Source: Russula earlei (lineage: Eukaryota > Basidiomycota > Agaricomycetes > Russulales > Russulaceae). From it: a DNA stretch of 64,000 bases. Shown in pieces: positions 11,141 to 55,425 of this stretch. The position numbers were made by a program, and so were the translations under genes. Positions within the stretch are counted from its first letter, which is position 1. The number at the start of each line of letters is the position of its first letter. The stretch lies in assembly GCA_025769875.1 (NCBI GenBank), contig JAGFNK010000129.1:1-64000 (forward strand), read 5' to 3'. The notes beneath the pieces were generated by a model, which saw nothing but the letters and a program-made list of their open reading frames with translations, was not told where the DNA came from and did no database searches.

Positions 11141-11151
11141 AAGCTTGGTCT
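11141..11151 (-). promoter_or_regulatory. Primer-binding site of element 2 (self-priming type)
   Basis: AGACCAAGCTT on the minus strand, two bases after the LTR end. It pairs perfectly with AAGCTTGGTCT at 11633-11643, the predicted RNA 5' end. Compared with element 3, both partners carry the matching change. Confidence 0.8.
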
Positions 11152-11153
11152 GA

Positions 11154-12036
11154 TGTCACGGTAACTAGCCGTGTCAGTTCACAAGCAGAAAGCAAGTCGA
11201 TGATAGAGATGTGTTCAAGAAACGGGCTGGTTCCCGTGTATAGTGAGTAAGGATCCCTGCAGCGGTCGAAGTGTTTTATGCTAAACAGGTTATGGCCAAT
11301 AGACCCTTCCTAGTACGACTCGGTCCGTTGAGAAGCTAGGGTAAGTTTGTAATGGGATAGACTAGGGCTGGTTCCACTAGCTATATGCGTTCAAGTCCGT
11401 CGGGACCTTGAACAACGCAGAGAGAGTAGAGGAAGGTAGGTCTTAAAGGAGGAGAGCTCTTCTCAGGAGAGTGAAGAGAGACTCTTAGGGAAGGAAGGGA
11501 AAGGCGAAGAGTAGATGGTGGATGGTGTGTTGAGAGTTGATGAAATGGAGAGGTGGTTGTGAGTTAAGTTTGTGAGAGTGAAGTGGGTTGCAGGCGAATA
11601 TGTTTGGACAAGAGTAGGTTGGATTCTACAAGAGACCAAGCTTAGGGCTTTGGTCACAAAGTACTGAGCTTATATATACAGGAGAAGCGCAGCAATAGCT
11701 GCGCTTTGACTGTGCTACTAGTATAGTAGGAGTCATAATAAGTAGGAGTCATAGAAATGAGGCCACGAATGAGTCAGAACCAAGTAACTGTGCTGCACAG
11801 TAGGTGCGCAGCATTGCACAGTCGAAACTAAGAAGTGAACATAAATGGAAAGAGAACCAAACAAAGGGAAAGTAACAGCAATCCAGTGTTACCTGGACGT
11901 GTATGGATCACATGATAACACAGAAAGGATCACAAGACGTAAGAGATCACAAGACCAGTAGGTAAAGGGACGTACGCAAGCAAGCAGTCCATAGCAAAAA
12001 GGTAAGAAGTAAACGTAAAAGGAAAATGGTGTAACA
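11154..12036 (-). repeat. 5' LTR of element 2
   Basis: 883 bp, near-identical to 3634-4515. It is followed by the target duplication CTCAC. It carries the TATA box and transcript start. Confidence 0.95.
11633..11678 (-). promoter_or_regulatory. LTR core promoter and predicted RNA 5' end, element 2
   Basis: TATATATAAG (minus strand, 11669-11678) lies about 30 bp upstream of AAGCTTGGTCT, which starts at 11643. The RNA would start there and pair with the primer-binding site at 11141-11151. Confidence 0.7.
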
Positions 12037-16041: not shown

Positions 16042-16924
16042 TGTCACGGTAACTAGCCATGTCAGTTCACAAGCAGAAAGCAAGTTGATAATAGAGAGTT
16101 GTTCAAGAAATGGGCTGGTTCCCGTGTATAATGAATAAGGATCCCTGCAGCGGTCAAAGTGTTTTATGCTAAACAGGTTATGGCCAATAGACCCTTCCTA
16201 GTACGACTCGGTCTGTTGAGAAGCTAGGGTAAGTTTGTAATGGGATAGACTAGGGCTGGTTCCACTAGCTATATGCGTTCAAGTCTGTCGGGGACCTTGA
16301 ACAACACAGAGAGAGTAGAGGAAGGTAGGTCTTAAAGGAGGAGAGCTCTTCTCAGGTGAGTGAAGAGAGACTCTTAGGGAAGGAAGGGAAAGGCGAAGAG
16401 TAGATGGTGGATGGTGTGTTGAGAGTTGATGAAATGGAGAGGTAGTTGTGGGTTAAGTTTGTGAGAGTGAAGTGGGTTGCAGGCGAATATGTTTGGACAA
16501 GAGTAGGTTGGATTCTACAAGAGACCAAGCTTAGGGCTTTGGTCACAAAGTACTGAGCTTATATATACAGGAGAAGCGCAGCAATAGCTGCGCTTTGACT
16601 GTGCTACTAGTATAGTAGGAGTCATAATAAGTAGGAGTCATAGAAATGAGGCCACGAATGAGTCAGAACCAAGTAACTGTGCTGCACAGTAGGTGCGCAG
16701 CATTGCACAGTCGAAACTAAGAAGTGAACATAAATGGAAAGAAAACCAAACAAAGGGAAAGTAACAGCAATCCAGTGTTACCTGGACGTGTATGGATCAC
16801 ATGATAACACAGAAAGGATCACAAGGCGTAAGAGATCACAAGACCAGTAAGTAAAGGGACGTACGCAAGCAAGCAGTCCGTAGCAAAAGGTAAGAAGTAA
16901 ACGTAAAAGGAAAATGGTGTAACA
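16042..16924 (-). repeat. Solo LTR of the element 2 family
   Basis: 883 bp, matching the element 2 LTRs end to end, with no internal region next to it. The target duplication CGTAC is at 16037-16041 and 16925-16929. This is the expected product of recombination between the two LTRs of an earlier full insertion. Confidence 0.93.
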
Positions 16925-17517: not shown

Positions 17518-19163
17518 CTACTTGCAGGAGGGCAAAGATACATTCAAAGAAAGGTGAACACTGGATGATGATGTGCTGAAGGGTAACCCTAGTGAACGAG
17601 ACTGCTTGCTATTCACAGAAGATGGAGGTAGAAGCCATCCTTTACACATCATTTTGGACGATCTCTTGCTATCTGGAGCCTTGCGCTTGCGGCGGGTCCT
17701 ACTCGCCGTCGGATACGGACCAAACACACTCGTGTCCTGGCTACCATTGTCATCTTTGTCCCACTGGGACTGGGATGTCATGTGCCTGTCTATGATATCC
17801 AAGATCGATTTGTGAGAAGAAACCTTCAATGGATCGGGCTTGTTAGGTCCTGGAGGTTTGGACGTGTCGCTGACCACGGGTGGATCTGAGTTAAAACCAT
17901 TATAAAAGGAATGATAAAGATTGCATAAATCTTGGATGATCTCCCCACACAGTGTCTTGACAAGTGACCCAATAGTCTCCTGCGAGAGTTGCAAGTTGTG
18001 TATGCAACCAAGCTTTCCAGCACCGCCCTTGACAATGCCATTGTCTGTCTGTCTGTGTTGATCAAATACAAGTGGCATTGCCGATTTCACGATTTCAGGA
18101 TTTACACATTTCACGACCACATAAAGAAGTACCCAAAAGAAGGACTCCAGATCATCCGAGACTTCATGCGGCCAAGTGAAAGGGAATAGCAAAAGCCCTG
18201 TTGATATGAACTGCCATGTACCCTGAACATGAATTTATTCAATTTGCCGCACGTAGAGGTGAAGGTCATACTGTTCGAGAGGGTCCCCTTGGCTGCGCAT
18301 CCATATCCTCCTTCTTGGAAAGGTCCCAATCAATCAGGATCCCTGATCCATCTTCGCGGATCAGAATGTTCCCTGTGCTCACATCCCGATGTAAAATTTT
18401 GGTTCTCTCGTATGCTACCGCATGAGCTGCTCCAAAATATTAATCAATGACAAACTTAACTTAAATGTTACACCAATTCTTACCCATGATGGCATCCCGA
18501 ATGACCTGGCATAGCTGCCATGTCGATTTGAACATACTCAGCGGCTGTCCAAGTGTCTCCAACACCAGTCAGTAATGAACATATGGGTCAACATTTGGTT
18601 GACCCAGGCACCATTTGTTTTTCCCTTTCCCTTTCACATAGCCTTGCGTCTTTGTCCTTTGCACAACAAGCAGAACCGTATTTGTGTGGTCCGGTGACAA
18701 AGGAACATCGCCAGCTTGACCAAACACCGGGATGTGAGGCACTTGTGCCCCATGTAATTCCCGATACACATCCCCTTCCTTCTGGGTCCCTCAACAATCT
18801 ATACGCCAGAAGTCCTTCAAATATACCAGTTTTGAGCTTTCGACATCATATGTGATGTATCCAAATGTGGAACGACCAAAAAGTGTCTCCTGTATGCCAT
18901 ATTGGCCCCACTGTGATATAAAACTGCAGCTGCTGACCAGTCGGCATCACAGGTCATCATGAACAAGAAACTTGCAAAGGTCCTTGGGTTTTACCTTCTT
19001 GATCATGAGACCCTCAGTATTCGTTCAGCTTCGAAATTGCCTGCAGTGGCCTCATCATTAGGGACCACAGAGATGACTGTGGTGTCTTGACCACGATCCG
19101 CGTTGGAGAGAAAGTTGAGTCTCTAGATGAACTCAAACAGTGTGTCATGTTTTTTGACCCAAT
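17518..19163 (-). pseudogene. FunK1-type protein kinase, C-terminal part (interrupted gene)
   Basis: FunK1 is a fungal-specific kinase family expanded in mushrooms. Visible on the minus strand: LFEFI then RLNFLSNADRGQDTTV (~19120), FGRSTFGYITYDVESSKLVY (~18870), the catalytic loop LHRDVSTGNILI (~18390), the metal-binding segment GILIDWDLSK (~18330), TWQFISTGLL (~18200) and the family hallmark HEVSDDLESFF (~18150). A basic tail follows. Introns are likely between these blocks. Stops break the reading: TGA at 18569-18571 after VHY, TGA after RIDC, and TAG in place of a Trp after FEFI. The gene continues across the transposon at 19166 and element 3; its N-terminal half is at 29451-30187. The kinase is not functional as it stands. 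Confidence 0.85.
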
Positions 19164-19165
19164 TA

Positions 19166-19574
19166 TTGCCGTTTTCAGCACACTTGGCGGAGCTTGAATT
19201 CCACCCAAATCAGCGCAGAAACCCCCTCAAACATGCGGGATGAATATCTCCCTCAAAACAGCTTCAATTCATATGAAATTTATTGTCCCTGAATCGCCTG
19301 AATGAGGGCTAGGCAGCCCCATTGTTTTCATGAGATTTGAGTGAGAATTGGTGGAGCTGGACTCAAGCCACCTCCACATGTGTATTAGATGAATTACAAC
19401 TCAAAATCATGGTCTATATCTATTATTTTTCCCTCATGTTGTACCCATGGGCTGTCTTGAGGCAGCCCCATAGTGTTTTTGACTCAAGTGTTGTGGTGTG
19501 CAACATTGTTTTCAGTGTGATCAGGAGTGATGGCCAGCCACTCATTGCCCCTCTTACCTCTTCATTCTGACCAT
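19166..19574 (+). repeat. Left terminal inverted repeat
   Basis: 409 bp, pairs with 21655-22062 in reverse orientation with a small number of substitutions. The inner end is at TTCTGACCAT. Confidence 0.9.
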
Positions 19575-21654
19575 ACACATACCCTGCGCCCATGCCCGCT
19601 CCAGCCTCCGTCCCTACATCATGCACCATTGCCTCTGCCTCACCTGCCTTGCCCATCGTCCCTGCGGTTCCCACCTCGTCCGCCATTCCCGTCACCTCAT
19701 TCACCGCCACCATCCTCGACTTGCCAGCCATCATCGCCTCGGCTCCACCTGCCCTCGCCGTCCCAGCATTGCCTGCATTCACCATTGTCACCACCTCGTC
19801 TGTCCCCGCCACCGTAGCCTCAGCCGTGACATCGCCTATTGCCACTGTCCCCGTCTTAGCCCAACCAGCTCCCATGCCCTCAGTGTCGCCTGCTATGGCC
19901 ACTGTCTCAGCTCCATGCACAACCACCATCTCAACCTCGCCCACCGACATTTTAGCGCTGACCACCACTTCAGCCCTCGCAGCCTTGTCTGCCACCCCCG
20001 CCTTCGTCTCATCCGCTCCCGTGCCCTCAGTCGTCTCGTCGCCCTCAGTCTCGTCCATCGCCTTATCTGTTGCCACAGTAGCCTCAGTCGTGCCAGCCGC
20101 TGACTTCGCATCAGTCTCCGTCTTAGCCTCACCCATACTCGTCAGTTCAGCCCAGTCCGTCATAGCACCAGCATCGCCAGCCGCCGCCGTCTCCACCCTG
20201 CCCTCAGCCTCAGCCTTCTCAGTCTCAGCCGCCGCCACCACGCCCCTAGCTTTGCCAGCCGTCTCCGTCGCCCCAGCTTCAGATCAGTGAACCACCGCCA
20301 CCGCGCTCTTAGCCTTGCCAGCCGCCTTGGTCTCGTCAGCCGCCACCGTAGCCTCAGCCTCAGCCACCGACGTCTTAGCGCCACACGCCGCCATCTCCAC
20401 CACCGTCTCACAAGCCACCACCACCACGCCCTTGTCAGCCACCGCCGCCATTGCCCCTGCGTCACCCTCAGTCGTCGCCTCCGCCCCGTCCACCTCCACC
20501 GTCGCACCAGCTCAGTCCGCCGCCACCTTCTCAGTCTCAGCCTCAGTCTTCTCAGTCTCAGCCGCCGCTTTAGTAGTTTCGTGTGACACCAGCACCGCCA
20601 CACCGTTGCAACCCCTCGCCACCAGCACCACCCCAGAAGACCAAGAAGGCCTCGGCCATGAACTTAGCCATGACACGCCACAACAGGAGCAGAAGCCGCC
20701 GCTGCAGGAGAAGCAGTTGCCGACGCCAACAGCACACTGCACGCCACCTCCCACATTGCCTCCCCATCCATTTGCGCGCTCTCGCCCACATCTGCTGCTG
20801 ACACCTGCAGTGGAGACGACCCCGCCACCACCGCCGCAAGATGACAGATCCCACCCCTGCGCAAGCTGCCCCACGCATCCTCTTTCTCGAGTCCTTGCCA
20901 CCTATGTCTCTATCTACGAACTCATGCTCACCGCCTATGCCTTCGCTCCTCGTCCACGCCTGCTGCCACCACCTGCAATGGAGACGACCACGCCGCCACC
21001 GCCACAAGACAACACCACCACCACGCAGCTGCCATCTCGTCACCGCTGCCCTCGTCTTCATCACCTCCGTTTCCCATCGCCCTCGCCTCTTCCATCATCG
21101 CCATCGCCGATCTCCGCCTTTGCGTCTTCCGCAGCACAAGCAGCCACGACCGCCGCCTCAATTCAGACATGAAAGGCTCAAAACACTCGCATTGAGACGC
21201 TTGACCGAGGACGGTCAAAGTTTCAAGCCCCCGGGAGGTGTAAGGAAGATTATGGCTGGCCTTGAAATCACATGCGAAAACGCAACACGACACGACATGA
21301 GACTGACACCTCGGCTCCCTTTCATCCCTTGCCACCTCCCTCTCGTTCCAGGCAGTCCACCGACCGCACACCACAAGCCATCTTGTGTGCGACATCAAGA
21401 CCTCAATCGCATCACCCAGCCCTCGCCACCGATCACGCGCCCATGCACGCCTCGGCACACTAGACATGTTCACGTCTCAAGCCTTTCATGACCGCCTCGA
21501 CCGTCTCAACCAGTCTTGATTCACTTTCATGCCATTCATCTCTAGTACCTCTCTCCTGTATATAAAAACACCCTAGCTACTCTGTAGTAGAAAGAGTTCA
21601 GAATAGGACCCCTCTTTGCAACCCACTCCTCTCTGTCTGTGAAAAACAAGAAGG
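19575..21654. other. GC-rich low-complexity interior of the TIR transposon
   Basis: 19.6-20.6 kb is a degenerate mix of GCC/CCA/GTC-type triplets. On the plus strand it reads as an Ala/Ser/Thr/Val/Pro-rich frame (19592-20290, and 20315-21172 after a break). The minus strand reads as an Ala/Glu/Thr/Gly-rich frame of equal length, and a Trp/Arg-rich frame is also open. Parallel open frames like these follow from the triplet bias alone, so I do not call a gene. A TATATAAA at about 21560 precedes CACCCTAGCTACT, a segment also found near 37600. Confidence 0.5.
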
Positions 21655-22062
21655 ATGGTCAGAATCGAGAGGCAAGAGGGGTGATGAGTGGCTGGCTGCG
21701 ACTCCAATTGCACTGGAAACAACGTTGCACACCACAACACTTGAGTCAAAAACACTATGGGGCTGCCTCAAGACAGCCCATGGGTACAACATGAGGGAAA
21801 AATAATAGATATAGACCATGATTTTGAGTTGTGATTCATCTAATACACATGTGGAGGTGGCTTGAGTCCAGCTCCACCAATTCTCACTCAAATCTCATGA
21901 AAACAATGGGGCTGCCTAGCCCTCATTTAGGCGATTCAGGGACAATAAATTTCATATGAATTGAAGCTGTTTTGAGGGAGATATTCATCCTGCATGTTTG
22001 AGGGGGTTTCTGCGCCAATTTGGGTGGAATTCAAGCTCTGCCAAGTGCGCTGAAAACGGCAA
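21655..22062 (-). repeat. Right terminal inverted repeat
   Basis: Reverse complement of 19166-19574. The outer end GGCAA adjoins the TA duplication, and 14 bases of kinase sequence follow before element 3. Confidence 0.9.
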
Positions 22063-22078
22063 TAAAAGGCTCAGAATA

Positions 22079-22572
22079 TGTCACAAGAACCGGCTCTTCG
22101 GACCGGACCGGCAACCGGACAAGCCTACCCGGACAGACCTCACGATTCCCGCGCGTTTTAATGACTCATCTAACCTCGCATGTACCAGCACCTTCCAGCG
22201 TGCTCTAGTCTCAATTGCCTCATTGTTACCTTGTGTCTACTATTTGATATAGGATACACTGTCTATATAAACCTGTTTGTAACGTAGAACAAGCCCTAAG
22301 CTTGTTCTCCTGTGAAATATCACTGGATTTCGAACTTCAGGACTTGTAGGCTTGCAAGACAACAAGCACTTTGTCTGAAACTCTTCCTGCTCATAAGCCT
22401 TCTCAACGCGAAGACTTATTCGCAGTTTCCCTTCTCCGCGGAACATATTTGCCTTGGCAATATCGTCTCCGAGATCCCCGAAATTCGCGAAGACTTAGTG
22501 TCTCGCTCAACTCGCTGCGCTCGTCTCGCGTGTGAACCGATTTGTCAACGACACCGCCCCCAGTCGGTGACA
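22079..22572 (+). repeat. 5' LTR of element 3
   Basis: Starts TGTCACAAG and ends GGTGACA. It differs from 28957-29450 at 22213, 22455, 22509 and 22531 only. Each difference is a CpG in the 3' LTR that reads TpG or CpA here. Confidence 0.96.
22264..22308 (+). promoter_or_regulatory. LTR core promoter and predicted RNA 5' end, element 3
   Basis: TATATAA at 22264-22270 is followed 34 bp later by AAGCTTGTTCT (22298-22308), the predicted first 11 nt of the RNA. The start is also the centre of an imperfect inverted repeat, AGAACAAGC then GCTTGTTCT. Confidence 0.7.
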
Positions 22573-22574
22573 TT

Positions 22575-22585
22575 AGAACAAGCTT
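22575..22585 (+). promoter_or_regulatory. Primer-binding site of element 3 (self-priming type)
   Basis: AGAACAAGCTT, two bases after the LTR. It is an exact 11-nt complement of 22298-22308; the match ends on both sides, so it is exactly 11 nt, as in Tf1. There is no TGG as expected for a tRNA 3'-CCA complement. Confidence 0.8.
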
Positions 22586-22652
22586 CTCCTCGAACCCTTG
22601 ACCCCGAACGCGTACACACGCATCCACCCCTGAATACAACGAATTCTTAAAG

Positions 22653-24324
22653 ATGACCTCAATGGCCAGAGACTGGAGATACAAAGGCCAAGGAAAGCCT
22701 TCTGAACAAGGACTGGCAAAGCTCAGACTTCCATTCGCAATAACCCTGGATGCCGACATTGCTCTAGTTCCAGAGCAATTTAGAAAGAATACCCTATTCT
22801 TACGACTTGGGACAGATTCCACTCCATGGACCGGATTCTTCGCACCCTACAAACAAGCAAAGGTAGCCCTCGCAACACTCTACGGAGTGTGGTTCGAAAT
22901 CGAACGACACGAAGACTACTTTACGGCCGTACGCGTCGCACGCCCGATTTTCGAACTGACATTTGATCCTCTTCCAGGACTGGACATGGACGCACTGGTT
23001 GCCTCAGGAACACCAGTACCACATTCCTCTCGAGCGACGACCCCGGCACCTGAAGAAACGATGGAACAAGAACCCCCCACGACAACTCAAGTCCACATTA
23101 CCGACGACGAACCAGAAGCACCCATTCCCCCGCAACTCGCGTCGTCCGGCACGACGCGAGCCTTTCCCCGACCTAGTCAATTCCAAGGCTTCGGAGGACG
23201 CAGGAAAACGACCTCCGAGCCCCGATCCCGACAACTACGACACACGCGCCAGTTATGGCCATGATGGACGCTCCTCCGATAATGGAAAGCTCGAAGGCAT
23301 TCCCCCGAAGGCCTTCAATGGCAACAGGGCCCGCACCCATATCTTCCTGACTGCTTTCCATAGGTTTATGACCTTAAACCACGACAGCAAAATCGCGCGC
23401 GACCCCATCAAGAAGTGCGCGTACTTCCTGTCACTTCTTGAAGGACCGGACGTCGAAGGATGGGTCGAAACCATGGATGAATGGCTGCAAGAAATTATTG
23501 ACGACCCTGAAGAACTCCCCTTTGGCCTCAATCCCTGGCAAGCCATGCAACAGAAATTCAAACACGCATTCGTCGACTATGCCGAACGTGAACGCGCGCA
23601 AGACCAACTCCGAGAACTGAAGATGAAAGACAACAATCTTGATGGCTACATTTCAGCCTTCCAAGTCCTTTCCAAGCGTGCAGGACTCTTCACAAATGAC
23701 CCAACCGTTATGCGTCTGTTTGCGTGCGGCCTCCCCAAGCCACTGGTCGAAGCCTGCATCAATTTTGAAGATCCGACCTCCTTCAATGATTGGATCAGCG
23801 CTGCGCAAAAGCAACACCGTGTCTGGATGCGCCGACGAGCAGTCCTAACCGACCATGCGAACACACACAACAGGAATACTAGCTCAAGCACCAACCATCC
23901 TTGGGCCCGCCTTTCGAATTGGGGCACATGCGGCAATACCAGCAACAACGCCATCGCGCCGCGCGCACGCCTACCACCACGCGACCCAAACGCGATGGAC
24001 ACCAGCGCGGGCGCCGCTCGCAAAGCAGTCACCGAGGCAGAAAAACAAAAACACCGAGAAGAAGGAAGGTGTTTCCACTGCTCTCTCCAAGGACACTTGG
24101 CCCGCGACTGTCCCACGAAACCGAAACGCGAAGCAACTCGCGTACGAACTGCAGATGCGACTACCACCACATCCAAATCCTCTGTTGTGGAGGTAATCGA
24201 AGAAAGTACGACCGACAAACTCACCAGAGCGGCAAAGGCGTTATCGGTAAAGGAAAGAGAAGCCTTCATTAAGGCTCTGACAGGAGATGATGAGGACAAA
24301 GAAGAGGATTTTTCGGACGCTTGA
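22653..24324 (+). pseudogene. gag: Gag of element 3, one 1-bp insertion
   Basis: The ATG at 22653 begins MTSMARDWRYKGQGK, an N-terminal extension domain that is also present in element 4. The frame runs to about 23205, where an AAAA run (23205-23208) has one A too many relative to the protein: FGGRRK should continue RPPSPDPDNYD, which is in the next frame. From there the capsid region (KLEGIPPKAFNGNRARTHIF, then ACGLPKPLVEACI) leads to the CCHC knuckle CFHCSLQGHLARDC (about 24072-24113) and an acidic C-terminus ending EEDFSDA with TGA at 24322-24324. Gag forms the particle and packages RNA. It overlaps the pol frame by about 30 bp. A sequencing error at the A run would explain the break equally well. 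Confidence 0.88.
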
Positions 24325-27300
24325 GCATTACGGCGATTGCTCGAGCTTTAGGTATCGATCCCATGTACAGATCTCAAAGAAAGTCAATATCAGTGATGAC
24401 TACTATGTACATTGGATCGAACAAAGCCGAAAAGAAAGCCCTTATAGACAGTGGGGCTACTGAATGCTTCATATCTCCCAAATTAACAAAAGAATTATGC
24501 TTACAAACAACAAAACTGGTTCCAACCAGAAATGTCAAGAACGTCGATGGAACACTTAACCGCCTAGGGAAAATCACCCAAACGGTCCAACTAGAACTGA
24601 AACTATTGGGACAAAAACACATACATCAATTCTTGGTTGCAGACATAGGACAAGACGATATCATCCTCGGATACCCATTTCTAGAATTGACCAATCCAAA
24701 AATAAACTGGTCCAAAGGAACCATCAAGGGAAAAGTCATCCTCAAAGGAGACCAAGAAACCCCAACATGGATCAAAGCGTTGGTAGACTGGGAAGAAGGC
24801 GATGAACTATGGCTACAAACCCAAATACGTAAAACGACCATAGCACAACAACTGGCAGAATCACAAATGCAAAACGAACAAAAAACCTGGCAAGAAATAG
24901 TTCCTCACCAATACCATCAATACGGACAAGTATTTATGGAACAAGAGTCGGAAAGGTTCCCTGGACCAAGGAAATGGGATCACGCCATTGACTTAAAATC
25001 AGACGCCCCAACAACGATCAACTGCAGAGTGTACCCCCTATCACCAAAGGAAAAAGAAGAACAGGGAAAATTCCTTGAACAAAACTTACGACTTAAACGG
25101 ATAAGAAGATCCAATTTGCCATACGCCAGTGGATTCTTCCTTATAAAGAAAAAGGATGGAAAATTTCGACCAGTGCAAGACTATAGAAACCTAAATAAAT
25201 GGACAATACCCAATGTATATCCACTACCCCTGATTCCAGAACTTATCCACGCCTTAGCAGGAAAAGAACTTTTTACCAAGTTCGATGTCAGGTGGGGCTA
25301 CAACAACATTCGAATTAAAGAAGGAGACGAATGGAAAGCCGCCTTCAAGACTAGTGACGGACTATTCGAACCCACGGTAATGTTCTTCGGCCTGACAAAT
25401 TCCCCAGCCACCTTTCAAACTATGATGGACGACATTTTTCAAGAAGAACTCGCGCAAGGATGGTTAAAGATCTATATGGATGACATCATCATCGCTACAC
25501 AAAATGATGAAACAGAACACACACTCAAAGTCAACCACATACTATCTAAACTAAGACAACACGACCTCTATCTTAAACCAGAAAAATGTCAATTCCACAA
25601 AAAGAAGGTAGAATACCTCGGAGTAATCATAGGAGAAGGAAAAATAACAATGGACCCCGTCAAAGTCAAAGGAATTAAAGACTGGCCAACCCCATCAACG
25701 CTAAAGGAAGTTAGAAGTTTCCTAGGATTTTGTAACTTTTATCGAAATTTTATACCTAACTTTTCCATAAAAGCAAGACCACTAAACGACTTAACAAAAA
25801 AGAACAAACAATGGCAATGGACAACAAAAGAAGATCAAGCCTTTCAAACCCTCAAGGAAACCTGTGTATCCTACCCAGTACTCCGCACTCCCGATTGGAC
25901 AAAACAATTCATCCTAGATACTGACGCATCAGGATTCGCCATAGGAGCAGTCATATCCCAAGAATATGAAGACGGCTTACACCCTATTGCATACTACTCC
26001 AGAACATTATTAGACGCGGAAAGAAACTACTGACGCTCATGACAAAGAACTAGCAGCAGTGATCTTTGGATTAAAAAGTGGACGACCATTCTTCCTGGGA
26101 GCCGACAAACCAGTCAGAATAAGAACAGATCATAAAAATCTTACCTACTTCAAAGAACCACAGAAACTAACAGGACGACAAGCCAGATGGATGCAATACA
26201 TGCAAGACTTCAATATCACCATGGAACATGTCCCAGGACACACGCACACCATTGCCGATGCACTTTCTCGTCGCAAAGACCTTAACAAGGGGGTAGAAGA
26301 ACAAAAAACCACACTACTACCACCTGAAATTTTCGCAAAAAAAATCTACCTACCAGACAAGCCCGACAAACGACAAGAAATTCTAAGACAGTTCCACGAC
26401 ACCCCTTTTGCAGGACATCCAGGAATAGCCAACACCTGGGACTTAGTCAAACAACACTACGAAGGACCTAGACTACGACAATTTGTAGAACAATACGTCA
26501 AAGGCTGCGCCAAATGTCAAGAATCCAAAACCAATATACCCAGAAAGAAAGCCACGACATTCCCACTCGACACACACGTTGAACAAGGCCCGTTTCAATA
26601 CGTATCAATGGACCTCATCACCGATCTACCCAAATCAGAAGGATTTGACAGCGTCCTTACTATAGTCGACCAAGGATGCTCCAAAGCAACAAAGTTCATC
26701 CCATGCAACAAAACGATCGATGGAACAGGCGTTGCACACGAATATCTGAAACACCTCGTGCCCTGGTTTGGCGTCCCTAAAAGAATCATCTCTGACAGAG
26801 ACCCCCGATTCGCATCAAACTTCTCTAAAGCCTTATGTAAAAATCTAGGCATCAAACAAAACATGTCCACCGCATTTCACCCCCAAACCGATGGACAAAC
26901 AGAAAGGATGAACGCATGGCTAGAACAATACCTAAGACCCTGGACCACGACTCATCCACATTCCTGGGCAAAAATGCTCCCCTTGGCAGAATACGCACAC
27001 AACTCATGGAAACATGAAACATCACGGAAATCACCACACGAACTCCTCATGGGATTCAAACCCCAAGTTAACATTAGTCTAGAAGATAATAACGTACCCT
27101 CATCCACCAACCGGCTAAAACAACTAGAAGAAGCAAGACAAGACGCCCAACAACTTCTAGAACGTAAACAACAACCCCTAAAGCCCGACATCAAAGAAAT
27201 GGAAGAAGGAACCCTTGTATGGTTAGAAGCAAAGAACCTCAAAACACGAGGAACACGCAAGCTGATGCCTAAAAGATACGGCCCATTCCCTATCACAAAA

Positions 27301-27633
27301 AGAATTTCCAAGGTCGCATATCAATTACAACTCCCGCCATCGATGAAGATACACGACGTTTTCCATGTCAACTTACTCCTCCCCTATAAGGAAACGGAGG
27401 AATATGGCACGCCGTTTACACAACCTCCACCAACCGTTGAAAACGAAGAAGAATATGAAATTGAAGCGATTCTAGACACAAGAAGATTTGGACGAACATG
27501 TAAACTTCAATACCTCGTACATTGGAAGGGATACCCGGCATCAGATGACTCATGGGTCGACCACCACGACCTCAACGCTCCAGAACTTCTAACAGAGTAC
27601 TACTCCGCTTCGGCTGGACGACCCCAAATATAA
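24294..27633 (+). pseudogene. pol: Pol polyprotein of element 3, one 1-bp insertion
   Basis: Open from just after a TGA at 24291 in the -1 frame relative to gag. No ATG occurs until 24363, inside conserved sequence. Counting from the TTG at 24321: protease LIDSGATECFI (Asp at residue 43), reverse transcriptase with YMDD at residues 385-388, and RNase H starting LDTDASGFAIGA. The frame then breaks: AACTAC is followed by an extra T at about 26031 giving TGA, where Asn-Tyr-Asp-Ala-His-Asp is expected (element 4 has NYNAHD). The second piece continues RNase H (RTDHKNLTYF), the HHCC finger (HPGIANTW, GCAKCQ), the DDE core (MDLITDLP, ISDRDPRF, TDGQTERMN) and a chromodomain (EYEIEAIL, YLVHWKGYP, DDSWVDHHDL). 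It ends at the TAA at 27631-27633. Confidence 0.93.
26282..26295 (+). other. Second copy of the polypurine tract inside pol (putative central PPT)
   Basis: TTAACAAGGGGGTA is identical to the 3' polypurine tract at 28942-28955. It encodes Leu-Asn-Lys-Gly-Val between RNase H and integrase. Element 4 has the same duplication. Confidence 0.55.
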
Positions 27634-27636
27634 AAA
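27629..27636 (+). promoter_or_regulatory. Conserved TATAAAAA overlapping the pol stop, element 3
   Basis: TATAAAAA contains the pol stop TAA (27631-27633) and lies 54-61 bp upstream of the ORF3 ATG at 27690. It is conserved in place in elements 2 and 4. It may drive a separate ORF3 transcript. Confidence 0.55.
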
Positions 27637-27689
27637 CACCACCCACAAACAACCATTCTCTACCGCTCCACCCCCAGAACATAACAGAC

Positions 27690-28937
27690 ATGTCCTCCAC
27701 TCAGAACTCTCCTACCACTTCCACCGCTACCCTTGTATCCACTCCACCTTATTCCCCTACACTTATCCATCTACCACTGTCTAGAGAACCCTCTCCCTCG
27801 ACAGCGGCAACCACCAACACCAGAATATTCATCCGACGAGCAGCACAGCACGCTGCAATGATCGTACAAGCACGCGAACTATGGGAAGACGATTCCCTCA
27901 CCACCATACTGCGAGCCTTCGGCAATCGATCCCCTACTCGAGGAACCAACTCTCCCGTTAGAACCCGCAGTCCTTCCTATCACGTTCGCTCCCCTTCACC
28001 TGACCCCATTCCAATTCCCCCACGTACTACCACGCCCATCATCCAGCAAGTCGAAAATATCGTCCTGCTAAACGAGAACTTCACCCCCATAAGCCGCGAA
28101 AGAACTCCTCCCCCCATCTACGAACCACCAGCTAATCGCACCCAACTCTCAGAACTGGAGGAACTTGGAGAAGGTTGGGAAGAAGGAGACCTTGGACTCG
28201 ACCTACTAATTCCAGACCCAGGCAATGAAGACGACACGCTTCCCCCTCGCTTCGTTCTCCCTGACTTGACACATGGCTTCCCCTCTTTGCTAGCCACCTA
28301 CGGTCCCGGATGTCCCACTCATCGCATTCCCATTCGAGCTAGAGCCGACCCCTACCCTCGTCCCCTTCTTACACAGAAAGATGCCTTCCTGTTTAAAGAA
28401 GGCCTCAGACACACCAAGGCTATAGACGAGGCACTTAGGTTTGAGCAAGACCTATCCCTAGAGGCAGAAGTGCGTCGCTACCGGTTCGCCATAAAGAAAA
28501 CACGACAAATGGCGAACAGTCTCGTCACCGCTCGCGAAAGATACCACGACATGGTGTGGGAAGTCAGGGACGCGGAAATCAAACTGGCCAAAGCCAACGC
28601 CAAAGCACGTCTCGAACCACGAGTCTTGTTTGGAACCATGCCCCAACTCACCGACCAAGAACATAAAGATGCCAAGGAAGCCTTACTAGACCCGTGGTAT
28701 CAGTTCACCCCTCGACTTTCGGACAAGTGTGCTTGGTGCCACGATGGAGGACACGACACCTTCGAGTGCCCTAAGATCACCATCTGCGTCCTTTGCAACC
28801 GCCACGGGCACATAGCTGATCGTTGTAGAAACCCACATCGACGGTGCAAGACCGATAGAATATGTCGAGTTCCTCGCGACCAAGTCCATTTCCACACCCA
28901 TCGTTGTCAATCGACTCTCATCCCCTACGCCACTTAG
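27690..28937 (+). CDS. ORF3 of element 3: accessory protein with two CCHC zinc knuckles, intact
   Basis: 415 residues, starting MSSTQNSPTTST. The Ser/Thr/Pro-rich N-terminus continues to about residue 140 (SREPSPSTAATT, SPSPDPIPIPP). An acidic stretch follows (LEELGEGWEEGDLGLDLLIP), then a helical basic region that could form a coiled coil (RYRFAIKKTRQMANSLVTAR, KLAKANAKARLEPR). The C-terminus has two knuckles of the pattern C-x2-C-x4-H-x4-C: CAWCHDGGHDTFEC and CVLCNRHGHIADRC, then further Cys/His (RRCKTDRICRVP, HTHRC). Against element 4, codons in the knuckle region differ mostly at silent sites, which suggests selection on the protein. I do not know a named family for it. RNA or cDNA binding is inferred. 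Membrane segments and a signal peptide are absent. Confidence 0.85.
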   Translation: MSSTQNSPTTSTATLVSTPPYSPTLIHLPLSREPSPSTAATTNTRIFIRRAAQHAAMIVQARELWEDDSLTTILRAFGNRSPTRGTNSPVRTRSPSYHVRSPSPDPIPIPPRTTTPIIQQVENIVLLNENFTPISRERTPPPIYEPPANRTQLSELEELGEGWEEGDLGLDLLIPDPGNEDDTLPPRFVLPDLTHGFPSLLATYGPGCPTHRIPIRARADPYPRPLLTQKDAFLFKEGLRHTKAIDEALRFEQDLSLEAEVRRYRFAIKKTRQMANSLVTARERYHDMVWEVRDAEIKLAKANAKARLEPRVLFGTMPQLTDQEHKDAKEALLDPWYQFTPRLSDKCAWCHDGGHDTFECPKITICVLCNRHGHIADRCRNPHRRCKTDRICRVPRDQVHFHTHRCQSTLIPYAT

Positions 28938-28941
28938 GACG

Positions 28942-28956
28942 TTAACAAGGGGGTAA
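28942..28956 (+). other. 3' polypurine tract of element 3
   Basis: TTAACAAGGGGGTAA abuts the 3' LTR. It primes plus-strand DNA in LTR retrotransposons. Confidence 0.8.
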
Positions 28957-29450
28957 TGTCACAAGAACCGGCTCTTCGGACCGGACCGGCAACCGGACAA
29001 GCCTACCCGGACAGACCTCACGATTCCCGCGCGTTTTAATGACTCATCTAACCTCGCATGTACCAGCACCTTCCAGCGTGCTCTAGTCTCGATTGCCTCA
29101 TTGTTACCTTGTGTCTACTATTTGATATAGGATACACTGTCTATATAAACCTGTTTGTAACGTAGAACAAGCCCTAAGCTTGTTCTCCTGTGAAATATCA
29201 CTGGATTTCGAACTTCAGGACTTGTAGGCTTGCAAGACAACAAGCACTTTGTCTGAAACTCTTCCTGCTCATAAGCCTTCTCAACGCGAAGACTTATTCG
29301 CAGTTTCCCTTCTCCGCGGAACATATTTGCCTCGGCAATATCGTCTCCGAGATCCCCGAAATTCGCGAAGACTTAGTGTCTCGCTCGACTCGCTGCGCTC
29401 GTCTCGCGCGTGAACCGATTTGTCAACGACACCGCCCCCAGTCGGTGACA
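28957..29450 (+). repeat. 3' LTR of element 3
   Basis: 494 bp, same length as the 5' LTR, four substitutions. It retains the CpG at all four differing positions. Confidence 0.96.
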
Positions 29451-32750: not shown

Positions 32751-33803
32751 ATTGCCAGTACTGTTAGGGGAGGATGTAGAGCAAGGGGCAACATCATCGA
32801 CAGGTCGTCTAAGAGTCGCAACTTGATTGAGTAGGCGGCAGAGACCATTGAGCGCATGTTACTCACTCCATAGCTTTGGCCAAGTTTGTAAGCCGGCCGT
32901 CGTGTTCCAGATTATATCGTCTCATTGTGAACCTCTGCCAGAGAATTGTCTGAATAATAGAATGCGGGGTCGGCACCAACATCAAGACGAAGACTAGGAG
33001 GTAATATAGATAGAAACCTTTGTAGCCTTTGGAAACATGTCAGTGCTATCGAGTTGCACCGAGAAACAGTCGTCGTCATCGTCACTTGAGTGGTCCATGG
33101 CAACAACCAGCAGGGTGCAGTACAACAAGGGATGGAATGGAACGGAACTTGGAAATTGTAAGGGCATGAAATGGATGAACTGGGCCATTCATCTTGACAT
33201 TCAATTTATTGGCGTACACAGATGAAAATTGCTGGACAAATACAGAAATCTAAGGGGCACCATTGTCTTCATTTCTTGGTGATGTTCAATTCCAACTATT
33301 CCTGTTCCTGTTCCATAATCCAGGGCGCTTGAATATGAACTTGCCAATTTGCCTGCGCCCGGTCACCCCTGTGCACGGCCATGACTCACATGCCGCCAAT
33401 TAGCAGTAACCCCATGGGATGCAAAGATGCCAATTGTCTCCTCTTTTCAGCCAAATTCAATTCATGGGGGCCATTCATACCATTTGGTGTGGGGACTGAA
33501 CTCATTCATTCCATCAATATCATATTCATTGTCATGATGGAGCAAGAGACACATATGCGAGCAGAGAGCTGAATCAGAGGTAGACCTGGTGTTGATATTT
33601 ATGTAATGATAGATACCATGCATCCGGAGACTCATACGTCTCTGAATTGTAGCTATGATACTGGCTGCATGCTCACCCTCAAGCTTTTCCTCATGGCTGC
33701 TCATTTGAAAAGTTAAACATGGACACATGCACAAATAGAAAACTAAGCAATCAAGTGCACAAGCCTTCCGAGACAGACATCATCATCATCATCATCATCA
33801 TCA
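32751..33803. other. Downstream flank of WD40-like copy A
   Basis: No convincing gene. From about 33290 it is similar to 52880-53280, so the duplication that made WD40-like copies A and B extends this far. It ends in a CAT microsatellite. Confidence 0.45.
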
Positions 33804-33806
33804 TCA
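33778..33806 (+). repeat. (CAT)n microsatellite, about 10 units
   Basis: 29 bp of CAT repeats at the 3' side of WD40-like copy A. The duplicate at 53285-53328 has about 15 units. Confidence 0.95.
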
Positions 33807-34296
33807 CCCGTAGATTCCCAGAGCGGAGCGCTGAGCTGCCACATGCTCACTGTCATCATTGCTCTTGCCCAAAGTCCTCTGCAACAAGCCCTCTGGTTGC
33901 AACCCAAACAATGTCGAAACGCTCAGCTTCACGCATCCATAACCCTGCACACCACCTGGCAAATAGATGGACCAAGCATTCCGGTTCCAGAAAGTGACAA
34001 AGATGGCTAGACCGAGAAGCATGATGGCTGTCACTGAAGCTCGCTTCTGCAAGATATGGGTCAGCTGGTCACAGTGCATGTAGCGCATTGTGATATTACG
34101 ACAATAGTCGGCCCCTGGACTGACTTCTTTGTCACCTGTTGTCCAGGTTCTGCACGCTTTTTCACTTTGTGATCTTGAATCCAATACCGAATCACTGTCT
34201 CCAAGCCCCTCTCGGCTATGCTGGTCACAATTTGGTGGGCGCTCCAAGCAGAGGAGTAAGCCTGAGTGAAGCACAGTCACACGTGAGTGTCTAAAC
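33804..34296 (-). pseudogene. WD40-like copy A, 3' part
   Basis: Homologous to 53326-53820. One frame contains a hydrophobic segment (SVTAIMLLGLAIFVTFW) that could be a membrane helix. An alternative frame reads ETVIRYWIQDHKVKKRAEP. I cannot decide which is used. The gene is cut here by the solo LTR at 34297. Confidence 0.5.
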
Positions 34297-35237
34297 TGTC
34301 ATGAACCATTCCCCGGGGAGGGCCCTTGAAGGACCCTTCCTTATAGGAGGAAACCCAGCCTCTATGGTGTCACCCTGTTCACATGAGCAAAAGGGGTGAG
34401 TAGAGGTGTCCACAATATCGCGCGCGCATTGTTGCGCGAGCGATTCTCGGCACAATCGACATACAGCAAGCCCCACTTAAAGGCAACCCTTCTAGCAACA
34501 AAAGACAGTATTAGGGCCTTCCTAAGGACCCTTTGGAACGACCCTAGGAACTCTACAATAGGTACTAACCTAGTATCAAAGGCCCTACAACGCGTTATTA
34601 GACCAACTCTAATAACTATAGAACGAACTATAAGGCAACACTAAGGACCTTGATAGAAGTATTAGGGTCGACTCTAAGGACCCTAATAGAACTATATAAG
34701 GGCCTTATAAGATAACACTATTCCCTAACCAAACTACAAGTCCTCAAATGACCGGCCCTAAACTAACTAACAGGAAATGAATCAGGTGCTTGCACGTGCA
34801 CTAAAGCAGTGAACACGTGGACAATGAAAGCTTCTTACTCAGCAGCTTACTGAGCATGACTGAGCATGCTCAGTAAGCGTCCTCCAACTTCTTACTCATC
34901 ACTCTATTGTGCTTGATAACAAGGTTATGACTTGTTCCCTATTTAGCAGTTCTCTTGTAGTATATAAGCGCTCAATAAAGTAGCAGACAGTCCTCAGACT
35001 GTCCATTTGTTTACGGCACTCTCCATCCCTGGGATACTCCTTTAAGGACCGTCCCCTTGTGACTATCCTGGCCTCTCCTCTGTGTGACTGCTCGACTCTC
35101 ACAGTAACAATACCTCTCTGGTATCTGTTACTACTCTGGACTCTACTCCTTGCCCACGCGGTCTTGGACGTCTATCGACTCGGCTTGGAGCTTATCCCTC
35201 GCTCTTGAACTGGATAGTTCAACAGTGAGTCTTGACA
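34297..35237 (+). repeat. Solo LTR, family 3, copy 2 (inside WD40-like copy A)
   Basis: 941 bp, TGTCATGAACC to GTCTTGACA; target duplication TAAAC (34292-34296 and 35238-35242). It lacks about 20 bp present in copy 1 near 31450. Copies B and C have the uninterrupted site. Confidence 0.93.
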
Positions 35238-36458
35238 TAAACCAGAATGATGTTCTACCAAATACGCACCATGGCCTGCACAATGTCTTCAGCTATTGAA
35301 GATGATTAATAAACACACTTTTGTTCAAAAATGTCAAATCACTTGCATTCGTGTGGAAGTTTCTCTATCAAGCTCCAATCCTTTGTACTCGTGATTCAGG
35401 TGCATCCATAGGACATTCCCAACAGAACATCTTTGCCAGCATGGATGAATGTCAAGGGTAGAATTACATTCTCTGGCGTTGGATGTGTTGTGGTGTGCTG
35501 GATTGGGGCATCCACAAAGTGATTGGAAGTCAGGGAATACCAGTCAATGCCGTCATAAAGGTTCGTAACGGCCAGCATCTTCTCGTCAAGGGATACCGCC
35601 CAACAGCCTCTATGTGCCCATCAATCTCAGGAGCATGGGCAAGAGGCAGAAGTGGTGCATCGTACATTTCACACAAATGCAGGCGGATGCGCCATTTGAT
35701 CTCAAAGGTCTTCAGATTCCATGCACTAAAGAGTTGGATAGGTTAGGGAGATCTGTCATAAATTATGGAGAACTCACATCATGCCATGGTCCAGATACGT
35801 CACCAGCAGGATGTCGTCATTAGCTCCTAAGAAATGGAGGGCCTGCACCATAGGCTCCGGCAGCTCTCCATCCAGCTCCGGGAACTTATGTGGATCCGGG
35901 AGGAGAGCTGCTCTTTCCCAAGTAGCTGTTCATTAGAATCAGTACCTGGGTCAGCCAGCTGTCACGGGAGGCGTGGTTCAAACAAACCGATGGTCGCTTG
36001 CTTGATCAGTTTAATGACATTGCCAGAACCGATGGCCAAACAAATCCCACTCTGTGCCATGCAGTGAATCAGGCCAGGCACACTATTGAGGGAATGATAG
36101 GCCAAATTTTGCTGTACCCAGAACGTTTCAGTTTAATCAGTTGTTGCTCGAACATAGCCAGGCAATGAGAAACACTTACATCTGCCAACTTTTGAAGGCA
36201 TAACGTATGCACATCACCACTTGCATTGCTGGCCACCACAGTATAGCCAAATTGAGAATGCCAGAGTAATGTTGTCACTGGCACCTTGACTTGAAATTGG
36301 CGAACCTCCCATCTGCTTCCATGTCCCTCAAAGATGATGATGAGACCGTTGTCAGCACCGCTGGCGAACAGTGAACCATCGTGTGAGAACGCTAGAGTGT
36401 TGATGGAGTCATAATGTTTTTTAAGAGTCTTCTTCAGCACATAGTGGCTCATTAACAT
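35238..36458 (-). pseudogene. WD40-like protein gene, copy A, 5' and middle part
   Basis: The minus strand reads HYDSINTLAFSHDGSLFASG then GHGSRWEVRQFQVKVPVTTL and GDVHTLCLQKLAD, two beta-propeller-like repeats with the usual Ser/His-Asp-Gly turns. A GTAAGT donor follows. Later exons read GICLAIGSGNVIKLIKQATI, ANDDILLVTYLDHGMIAWNL and APLLPLAHAPEIDGHIEAV, then SPDEKMLAVTNLYDGIDWYS in another frame. Introns are short and GT...AG. A TGA after EPRLP and the frame change after HIEAV are shared by all three copies. WD40 proteins are scaffolds; no partner can be inferred. A solo LTR interrupts the 3' part. Confidence 0.7.
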
Positions 36459-40408: not shown

Positions 40409-40901
40409 TGTCACTGACTGGGGGCGGTGTCGCTGACAAATCAGTTCACGCGCGAGACAAGCGCAGCGAGTCGAGCGAGACACTAAGTCTTTGCAAGTTT
40501 TGGGGATCTCGGAGACAGTATTGCCAAGGCAAACGTGTTCCGCGGAAAGGAGAGATTATGAATAAGTCTTCGCATCGAGAAGACTTATGAGTGGGAGAGG
40601 TTTCAGACCGATTGCTTGATGTCTTGCAAGCCTACAAGTCCTGAAGCTGGAAACCAGTGATATTTCACAGGAGAACAAGCTTAGGGCTTGTCCTTGTCAA
40701 ACAGCAGTCTTATATACATACTAGATACTATATCAAATAGTATTCATGAGGTGGAAGCGAGGCAATCGAACTGAAACACGCAGGAAACGTCTGGTATGTG
40801 CGAGGCTACGGAAGGGTCATAAAACACGCGGGAAACTTGAGACATGTCCGGGTAGGCTTATCCGGTTGCCGGTCCGGTCCGATGTACTGGTTCTTGTGAC
40901 A
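40409..40901 (-). repeat. 3' LTR of element 4
   Basis: 493 bp; on the coding strand it starts TGTCACAAGAACC and ends GTGACA. It retains about 21 bp (near 40455-40478) that the other LTR has lost. Confidence 0.94.
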
Positions 40902-40916
40902 TTACCCCCTTGTTAA
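40902..40916 (-). other. 3' polypurine tract of element 4
   Basis: The minus strand reads TTAACAAGGGGGTAA next to the LTR. 19 nt of this tract and its 5' flank recur inside pol near 43572-43590. Confidence 0.8.
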
Positions 40917-40919
40917 GGT

Positions 40920-42177
40920 CTAACCTGTGTAGGGGTGGACGTTAGAGATGCAGCGATGGGTGTGGTAGTGGAGTTGGTCTCAAGGGACTCGACATATTTT
41001 GTGTGCTTTACAGTGTCGATGTGGAGTTCTGCAAAGGTCCGCCTTGTGTCCATGGCGATTGCAGAGAACGCAGGTAGTGATTTTGGGACAATCGATGGTG
41101 TCATGTCCCCCATCGAGACACCAGGAGCATTTGTCGGAGATATGGGGGGAGAATTGATACCAAGGATCCATGATTGCCTCTTTGGCATCTTTATGTTCTT
41201 GTTCGGTCAGTTGCGGTATGGATTGGAACAGGATTCTGGGTTCAAGTCGGGTTTTGGCGTTAGCTCTGGCCAATTTGACCTCACTGTCCCAGATTTCCCA
41301 CAGCATGTTGTGGTAACGTCCTCTAGCCGTCACGAGTTGATTGGCCATTTGTCGCGCTTTCTTTATGGCGAATTGATATCAAAGGACTTCGGCTTCGAGG
41401 GACAAATCTTGTTCGAAGGTGAGGGCCTCGTTGACGGCCTTGGTATGTCTGAGCCCTTCTTGGAACAAGAAGGCATCTTTTGTAGTGAGGAGAGGACGAG
41501 GATAGGGGTCGGCATGAGCTCGAATCGAGATTCGGTGAGTAGGACATCCGGGGCCGTATGTCATGGTGACGGATGGGAATCCATTGGTCAGATCGGGTAG
41601 AACGAATCACGGGGGGAATAGTATCATCTTCATTGCCAGGGTCAGGGATCAACACATCAAGTCCTAGAGTTCCCTCCATCCAGCCGTCTCCCAGTTCACC
41701 CAGTTCAGCTGCAGTGTCTGTTCCCGGGGCTACAGGTGTTATGTAGGCCGGTGGGGGAGTGTCGTTGTTTCGTGGGGGTATTGGGACAAAGTTTTCGTTG
41801 AGGAGTATCAAATTAATTGGTTGTTGGGGGATGGGTGTGTCGAGTCGAGGAGGGATGGGGATGGGGTCAGGAGAGGGGGAACGAACGTAATAGGATGGGC
41901 TGCGGGCAATTGGGGAGTCAGTTCCTCTGGTGGGGGAGCGATTGCTGAAGGCTCGCAGTATGGTGGGTAGAGTTTCTTCGTGCCAAAGTTCTTGGGCCTG
42001 CGCTATCATTGCTGCATGTCGTGCTGCACGTCGTACTAGGAGTTGAGCGTTGATAGTCACGGCCGTAGATGGAGATGGTTCTCTAGAGATTGGTAGAGGA
42101 ATAAGAGTTGGGGAGTGTGGAGGAGTAGGGATGAGAGTAGTGGAAGAGGTGGTGGGTGAGTTGGCGTTGGAGGACAT
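40920..42177 (-). pseudogene. ORF3 of element 4, frameshifted with a nonsense codon
   Basis: The ATG at 42177 starts MSSNANSPTTSS and keeps the Ser/Pro-rich N-terminus (SREPSPSTAVTI, SPSPDPIPIPP). The frame shifts near 41580 (DQWIPIRHH versus MTYGPGCPTHRIS) and again near 41375. The helical region (MANQLVTARGRYHNMLWEI) and both knuckles (CSWCLDGGHDTIDC and CVLCNRHGHKADLC) are kept. A TGA at 40980-40982 replaces the Arg codon that element 3 has after CRVP. The end is TAG at 40920-40922. It is homologous along its whole length to the intact ORF3 of element 3. Confidence 0.8.
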
Positions 42178-42229
42178 GTTGGAGTGGGAAGAATGGAGTA
42201 GTGGGGAGTGTTGATTGAGATTGGCAGTC

Positions 42230-42237
42230 TTTTTATA
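42230..42237 (-). promoter_or_regulatory. Conserved TATAAAAA overlapping the pol stop, element 4
   Basis: TATAAAAA on the minus strand includes the pol stop TAA (42233-42235) and lies 53-60 bp upstream of the ORF3 start. Confidence 0.55.
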
Positions 42238-45200: not shown

Positions 45201-45548
45201 AATCAGATTGTCTTGTCTGATGTCTGCTACAAGGAATTGGTGTTTGCTTTTTTGTCCCAGTAGTTTTAACTCTAAGTCTACCGCTTGAGTGATCTTTCCT
45301 AGGCGATTAGGAGTGTTATCAATGTTTTTTACCACTCTAGGTGTTAACAATTTTTGTGTTCTCAATTGAAGTTGTTTGGTTAATTTGGGGGATATGAAGC
45401 ATTCAGTTCCTCCACTATCGATTAACGCGGTTTTCTTTTCAGCTTTTGAGGTTCCAACATATATAGTCAATTTGACCTGCATTGACTTTTTTCTTGTAAT
45501 TTTATATACATTGGTACCTAGGGCCCGAGCGATCGCCGATATGCTCAG
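42233..45548 (-). pseudogene. pol: Pol polyprotein of element 4, several breaks
   Basis: Conserved sequence starts at the CTG overlapping the gag stop (45546-45548) and precedes the first ATG. The protease motif is LIDSGGTECFI; the usual residue after DSG is Ala or Ser, so Gly is odd. Reverse transcriptase has KIYMDD, and RNase H has LDTDASGFAIGA and NYNAHDKELAAV. The frame is open to a TGA at 43494-43496 (LPDKLDK then stop) where element 3 has CGA. Small insertions near 43470-43445 disrupt the HHCC finger region. A 1-bp deletion near 42985 breaks STAFHP of the integrase. The remainder, MNAWLEQYL to the chromodomain (EYEIEAIL, YLVHWKGYP, SWVDHHDLNAP), is open to the stop at 42233. Confidence 0.9.
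43572..43585 (-). other. Second copy of the polypurine tract inside pol, element 4
   Basis: TTAACAAGGGGGTA on the minus strand, same location in pol as in element 3. Together with its 5' flank it shares 19 nt with this element's own 3' polypurine tract. Confidence 0.55.
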
Positions 45549-47248: not shown

Positions 47249-47316
47249 CTTTCAAAAATCAGTTGTATTCGGGGGTGGATGCGTGTGTACGCGTTCAGGG
47301 TCAAGGGTTCGAGGGT

Positions 47317-47327
47317 AAGTTTGTTCT
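47317..47327 (-). promoter_or_regulatory. Primer-binding site of element 4, one mismatch
   Basis: AGAACAAACTT on the minus strand, two bases after the LTR. It matches the complement of AAGCTTGTTCT (47571-47581, just downstream of a TATATAAG at 47608-47615) at 10 of 11 positions. The mismatch is a G to A change. Confidence 0.7.
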
Positions 47328-47329
47328 AA

Positions 47330-47801
47330 TGTCACCAACTGGGGGCAGTGTTGCTGACAAATCAGTTCACGTGCGAGACACTAAGTCTTCGCAAGTTTCG
47401 GGGATCTCAGAGACAGTATTGCCAAGGCAAACAGTGTTCCGCGGAAAGGAGAGATTATGAATAAGTTTTCACGTCAAGAAGACTTATGAGTGGGAGAGGT
47501 TTCAGACCGATTGCTTGATGTCTTGCAAGCCTACAAGTCCTGAAGCTGGAAACCAGTGATATTTCACAGGAGAACAAGCTTAGGGCTTGTCCTTGTCAAA
47601 CAGAAGTCTTATATACATACTAGATACTATATCAAATAGTATTCATGAGGTGGAAGCGAGGCGATTCGAACTGGAACACGCAGGAAATGTCTGGTATGTG
47701 TGAGGCTACGGAAGGGTCATAAAACATGTGGGAAACTTGAGACATGTCCGGGTAGGCTTATCCGGTTGCCAGTCCGGTCCGATGTACCGGTTCTTGTGAC
47801 A
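47330..47801 (-). repeat. 5' LTR of element 4
   Basis: 472 bp. About 21 bp shorter than the 3' LTR because of one deletion beside CACGTGCGAGAC near 47370. Confidence 0.94.

Positions 47802-53284: not shown

Positions 53285-53328
<44 letters not shown>
53285..53328 (+). repeat. (CAT)n microsatellite, about 15 units
   Basis: 44 bp of CAT repeats in the same position as the 29-bp tract beside copy A. Confidence 0.95.
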
Positions 53329-55001: not shown

Positions 55002-55425
55002 GAGTCTTCTTCAGCACATAATTGACCCAGAAGGACGGATAACACGGATGAACAACTCATTGAAGGGTGTTCATTTGGACATTTGGACAATGGCTACTAG
55101 ATGTGACTCGGGCGGCCGTGTTGGTCAGACAATGGTCAATGAATGATCCATGGAGTGGATGGGTAGACTGTCAGGCCCCCACACTGGCAGAGGCCAATTT
55201 GAGATAAAAATACAAATTTTTCACCGATACAATTTGTTTCTTTGCACCTATGCCGAGAATACAATTGTGGCCTGATGGGTCCATCACAAATCTGGCTTGT
55301 CGCAGCCATGACATGTACATAAGAATATTCCGTACATAAGTGTATACTAAACAAAAATATAATGCTCTCCATGATCTGTGCCGATATGGAAATATTTGCC
55401 AGACAGGCCACATCCAAGCCCATCT

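Follow-up and report, generated by a model that had tools for sequence, protein, structure and literature searches.

Primer and primer-binding sites that change together in five LTR retrotransposon families of Russula earlei point to self-priming of the Tf1 type

The LTR retrotransposons described here, which belong to five families of one genome, are very probably self-priming chromoviruses that work as Tf1 does, a reading drawn from sequence comparison, predicted RNA folds and analogy with Tf1. According to this reading the RNA would begin at an A some 34 bp downstream of the TATA box, and its nucleotides 1-11 would fold back onto a primer-binding site (PBS) just past the 5' LTR, as the sequences and predicted folds suggest. 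By analogy with Tf1, the RNase H of the element would then free these 11 nt, and their 3' end would prime minus-strand DNA. The PBS of each new copy would be recopied from the primer, which fits the co-variation between families, and consequently primer and PBS would stay matched.

The window, that is, the whole 64-kb stretch of DNA that was analysed, from an assembly of 66.6 Mb, carries several LTR retrotransposons. The element in which the match was first noticed, element 3, has the following features.

22,079-29,450, plus strand: element 3, family A, classed as a Ty3/gypsy chromovirus; LTR identity 99.2%, TSD GAATA on both sides
22,079-22,572, plus strand: 5' LTR, TGTCAC...GTGACA, 494 bp
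22,264-22,271, plus strand: TATA box, its start 34 bp upstream of the inferred RNA start
22,286-22,294, plus strand: U3 arm AGAACAAGC, identical in sequence to PBS nt 1-9 and able to pair with nt 3-11 of the primer
22,298-22,308, plus strand: self-primer AAGCTTGTTCT, inferred RNA nt 1-11, exact complement of the PBS
22,309-22,326, plus strand: conserved hairpin adjoining the 3' side of the primer, predicted at columns 12-30 when 51 copies are folded as a consensus
22,543-22,572, plus strand: U5-tail hairpin adjoining the 5' side of the PBS, in predicted folds
22,575-22,585, plus strand: primer-binding site AGAACAAGCTT
22,586-22,592, plus strand: post-PBS stretch, variable between copies in base and length
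28,957-29,450, plus strand: 3' LTR, with U3 arm at 29,164-29,172 and primer copy at 29,176-29,186

The initial annotation had reported the exact 11-nt complement between 22,298-22,308 and 22,575-22,585, 2 nt past the LTR, and had placed AAGCTTGTTCT 34 bp downstream of the TATA box; both the coordinates and the letters were verified, the 34 bp being counted from the start of the box. When 100 post-LTR offsets were scanned, offset 2 was the only one with at least 11 nt complementary to the element's own LTR, and the chance expectation for such an 11-nt self-match is about 1e-4 (484/4^11).

Related copies lie elsewhere in the window. The other full-length family-A copy, element 4, has the PBS AGAACAAACTT, which matches at 10 of 11 positions, and an LTR identity of 90.7%; it reads as an older relative of element 3, and element 1 as a recent copy of family B.

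40,409-47,801, minus strand: element 4, family A, older; primer 47,571-47,581, PBS 47,317-47,327 with one mismatch, TSD GAAAA
3,634-12,036, minus strand: element 1, family B; LTRs of 882/883 bp, 99.7% identity, TSD GTGAG
11,633-11,643, minus strand: element 1 self-primer AAGCTTGGTCT
11,141-11,151, minus strand: element 1 PBS AGACCAAGCTT
11,647-11,655, minus strand: element 1 U3 arm GACCAAAGC, with one bulge in its pairing to primer nt 3-10
62,430-62,920, plus strand: solo LTR, family A; primer 62,648-62,658, TSD CATCT; found only in the right arm of an inverted repeat, the left arm being the empty site
16,042-16,924, minus strand: solo LTR, family B; TSD GTACG

The inverted repeat that holds the family-A solo LTR is very large (54,024-58,014 / 59,510-64,000), and its arms are 94-100% complementary and about 1.5 kb apart. 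Two further kinds of repeat were observed. The stretch adjoining element 3 (19,143-22,085) has inverted end arms of 375 bp at 95% and internal open frames of 160-285 aa, the three of which that were tested gave no Pfam match; it could be a DNA transposon. Three other stretches (33,730-36,420, 53,237-55,105 and 63,028-64,000) repeat one another at 94-97% and contain a CAT-repeat run; they represent either a segmental duplication or an unknown element.

By their coding content we class the elements as Ty3/gypsy chromoviruses. Element 3 encodes gag, PR, RT, RNase H, an IN zinc finger, SH3_Tf2-1 and a chromodomain in separate frames, with frame breaks present; the Ty3/gypsy order PR-RT-RNase H-IN with gag upstream was found with its domains spread over these frames, and the rve core scored 27.4 bits, below the cut-off of 32.6. 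A chromodomain at the integrase C-terminus was detected in element 3 (E 1.3e-9) and in element 4 (E 7.8e-11), and in element 1 it is partial (22 bits against a cut-off of 25.1). Matches to PF24626 (SH3_Tf2-1), with E values of 8.6e-19 and 1.5e-21, hint at membership of the Tf1/sushi group. The pol of element 1 is an open frame of 1121 aa, and its closest solved structure by sequence is chain A of 7q5b, from Ty3 of Saccharomyces (E 1.3e-110, residues 213-1106). Among 120 pol relatives listed, one in Candolleomyces aberdarensis stands at 43%; no relatives were found in viral contigs queried with one protein and with an alignment of 11. A piece of the host's own RPB2 is 92% identical to that of Marasmius sp. 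AFHP31 and 97% to one further contig, by which the host reads as an agaric.

If element 3 is self-priming, 11-nt complementarity at the same spacing should recur in its relatives, and this expectation of the initial annotation was borne out in 49 of 53 family-A copies and in four other families with 11-mers of their own. The 49 copies match at 11 of 11 positions, among them one (L053) that is changed on both sides, and the remaining four have one mismatch each. In all, 54 distinct family-A copies were collected, and the primer was found in every one except L043. They came from similarity searches (30 of the best 40 of 363 candidates, and 8 of the best 40 of 954), from the first 30 of 833 matches to a pattern in which the LTR end and TT were fixed and the PBS was left free, and from L072 and one copy in the window; a separate pattern, with both flanks fixed, was used on the post-PBS stretch. 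These copies are kin, so that their counts are not independent. Furthermore, two RPB2-like loci score almost equally (G000:C8:146837, 448.4 bits; G000:C591:25804, 448.2 bits), a hint that two haplotypes may have been assembled and that some family-A copies may therefore be alleles.

The 11-mer primers of the five LTR families are AAGCTTGTTCT in A, AAGCTTGGTCT in B, AAGCTCGACTT in C, AAGTCGAATCT in D and ACGCTCGACTT in E, and each matches its own PBS at 11 of 11 positions and the PBS of other families at 4-10 of 11. Between families the differences fall in eight of the 11 columns, namely 2 and 4-10, and every change is compensated. The primers of A and B are one column apart, as are those of C and E, so these are only three clearly distinct groups rather than five independent cases. 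In one representative per family, examined with the same scan, the longest LTR complement lay at post-LTR offset 0-2 in all five, and the first A of the primer lay 34-35 bp downstream of the TATA start, also in all five. We also inspected 13 upstream pieces at PF24626 hits, hand-picked from 150 listed hits mostly by long open frames. Exact 11-nt matches were present in nine (L069, L071, L072, L073, L079, L080, L081, L082 and L084), three (L070, L074 and L075) had the match with one or two changed pairs, and in L083 neither an LTR nor a match was found. By eye, L075 has two mismatches and L074 holds two positions only through G-U; the changed bases of these three pieces resemble CpG to TpG/CpA and look like decay of methylated C. 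Genome-wide, the motif CCCTAAGCTTGNNCTC occurred 1186 times (565 + 621) and the same pattern read backwards 0 times; among 100 matches listed, its NN was TT or GT, as judged by eye.

Among LTR elements, priming by a tRNA is the usual route, and a host tRNA might prime these elements too, with its 3' end or an internal half, the LTR match then being a coincidence or a remnant. We consider this highly improbable. Our comparison covered 32 tRNA genes of the 63 listed hits, and within it the longest tRNA complement to the first 16 nt was 6 nt in element 3 and 6-9 nt across six elements, whereas five families each match their own LTR. TGG was absent from the 30 nt after the LTR in all six. Consequently, a PBS of the tRNA type, with a TGG start and a match to a tRNA 3' end, was found in none of the six elements against those 32 of 63 hits, in agreement with the initial annotation, for which a longer tRNA match to the PBS would have spoken against self-priming. 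Priming by a tRNA was rejected on these two grounds, the missing TGG and the shortness of the complement within the 32 tRNA genes compared. Ty3 uses a tRNA primer, and the present elements differ from it in having no PBS of that type. As an observation apart, 17 of the 63 RF00005 tRNA hits share a score of 61.6 and another 17 a score of 56.3; four such hits were retrieved and read as tRNA-Ile(UAU), and the hits of equal score may be a tRNA-derived repeat.

Predicted RNA folds are consistent with self-priming. From the inferred start to past the PBS, the minimum-energy fold contained all 11 primer:PBS pairs in each of the five family representatives, with a predicted mean pair probability of 0.92-0.99. 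None of 100 shuffles folded as well as element 3 (z -2.9), and the fold of element 1, of family B, was only moderately better than its shuffles (z -1.67, 5 of 100 as good). A consensus fold of 51 family-A copies, out of the 52 fetched copies that have both parts (L065, with a deletion, was excluded), comprised the primer duplex, the hairpin after the primer and the U5-tail hairpin before the PBS, and the last 45 nt of the LTR, folded alone, formed a hairpin in 5 of 5 representatives. The helices flanking the primer duplex are predicted as local hairpins; these folds leave room for, but do not display, a three-duplex 'pretzel' like that of Tf1. Taken together, the 49 of 53 copies, the four other families, the lack of a tRNA match and these folds support, at the level of sequence, the Tf1-type self-priming that had been put forward for element 3.

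One part of the initial annotation, that the match is exactly 11 nt and ends on both sides, stands for element 3 and fails across family A. In element 3 the C after the PBS faces T at -1 and the spacer T faces C at +12. Across the 54 distinct copies of family A, the PBS is followed by A in 30, by T in 14, by C in 9 and by G in 1, and the A of the 30 copies pairs with T at -1. On the 5' side, pairing extends to 12 in family B and in the A copies with this post-PBS A, and to 13 in E; if the bases upstream and in the spacer are included, the match reaches 12 nt in both B and C and 14 nt in E, with spacer pairing in C and E. A sharp 5' boundary was therefore dropped as proof of the RNA start, as pairing runs on for 1-2 nt in other copies and families, and the sequence alone would fix the start to within about two bases, not one. 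In families C and E, cleavage after nt 11 and cleavage after nt 12 would both be compatible with the pairing. The stretch after the PBS is highly variable in family A, with an entropy of 1.51 bits at its first base against 0-0.13 inside the PBS, and the distance from the PBS to a GAACCC anchor ranges from 5 to 10 nt between copies. This stretch could mark the RNA 5' end copied at second-strand transfer, or it could be a free spacer; its variability was not retained as a footprint of cap copying or untemplated bases, since an unconstrained spacer fits equally well.

Just upstream of the inferred start lies a short U3 arm, AGAACAAGC in A, GACCAAAGC in B, CAGTTGAGC in C and AAGTCGAGC in E, which is predicted to pair with the primer across a 5-nt loop, at primer nt 3-11 in A and E and nt 3-10 in B (one bulge) and C (one G-U). 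In family D the hairpin measures 9-10 bp and differs in geometry. When only the upstream letters were shuffled, 0-28 of 2000 folded equally well across eight cases. In terms of pairing energy, families A, B, D and E have primers that favour their own arm; the primer of C pairs more favourably with the arm of E, and the arm of C suits C and E equally. Within the arm (-12 to -4), the 53 family-A copies differ at two positions only, -10 (31 A, 22 G) and -8 (50 C, 3 T), and both variants retain pairing as G-U; outside it, positions -14 and -20 vary freely (1.93 bits and 1.76 bits). Pair-breaking changes in the arm were seen in at least 4 of 100 matches listed.

The palindrome that arm and primer form around the inferred RNA start of families A, B, C and E, and the conservation of -12 to -4 amid variable flanks in family A, would also be expected if the two made up a transcription-factor or initiator site, with the post-LTR copy as another binding site instead of a primer site. 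This alternative is very unlikely: it leaves unexplained why the third copy lies 1-2 nt past the LTR in every family, why the post-LTR and LTR copies change together between families, and why a tRNA-type PBS is absent.

Within the self-priming reading, the arm calls for an account of its own, to which the confidence expressed in self-priming does not extend. Because the RNA contains U3 at its 3' end alone, the arm hairpin would form with the 3' primer copy; we hypothesize that the PBS-like arm folds onto this copy and may mask it, possibly keeping it off the PBS. Only tentatively, and with less than even confidence, can this be extended to a rule in which each of these self-priming families has a PBS-imitating U3 arm that locks the 3' primer copy, so that only the 5' copy pairs and is cut, and in which the arm tracks the primer between families though it is not renewed from the primer in usual reverse transcription. 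It is possible, if rather doubtful, that the arm has no function and that its match is upheld by quasi-palindrome copying errors through template switching. Correction of quasi-palindromes by this route is known in other systems, and in families A, B, C and E a gap of just 5 nt separates arm and primer; but the two common variants of the family-A arm (G for A at -10 in 22 of 53 copies, T for C at -8 in 3 of 53) make G-U wobbles of the kind that such correction would tend to erase, and the geometry of family D differs. The portions of the self-priming literature at hand, in which coverage of Tf1 is thin, contain no mention of a U3 arm, for the Tf1/Tj1 group or otherwise, and no paper on one appeared among the titles and opening lines of abstracts listed; this is no sign that it is unpublished.

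Self-priming itself is an established mechanism. In the available excerpts of the papers cited, priming by the first 11 nt of the RNA has been shown for Tf1 (PMC7175516), and it has been proposed for Tj1 (PMC4600332) and for Cryptococcus Tcn1, with Tcn2-5 proposed to use other mechanisms (PMC7175516). According to the excerpts it is also common to Tf1/sushi elements (PMC10085805), and it has been predicted for the majority of plant elements in the Tcn1 clade (PMC6317226); for club-moss SM-Tcn1, evidence of self-priming was sought and none was found (PMC2864245). As in Tf1/Tf2 of Schizosaccharomyces pombe, Tj1 of S. japonicus, Tosmo and Tcry, so far as these excerpts describe them, the PBS past the 5' LTR here complements RNA nt 1-11 (PMC7175516, PMC4600332, PMC10085805), whereas the primer sequences differ from theirs. 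The present elements also share with the Tf1/Tf2-type group a Ty3/gypsy pol with a Tf2-1-like SH3 (PF24626) and a chromodomain, and they are chromoviruses like Cryptococcus Tcn1, the plant Tcn1 clade, the basidiomycete marY1 and the Laccy clades.

The mechanism being already known, what is new here is that further elements are placed by mechanism and not by phylogeny. Five matched primer/PBS pairs, in three clearly distinct groups within one genome, are stronger comparative evidence than a single match. Unlike tRNA priming, self-priming means that the primer sequence occurs twice in the genomic RNA, at its 5' and 3' ends, and the conserved U3 arm suggests how these elements might handle the duplicate.
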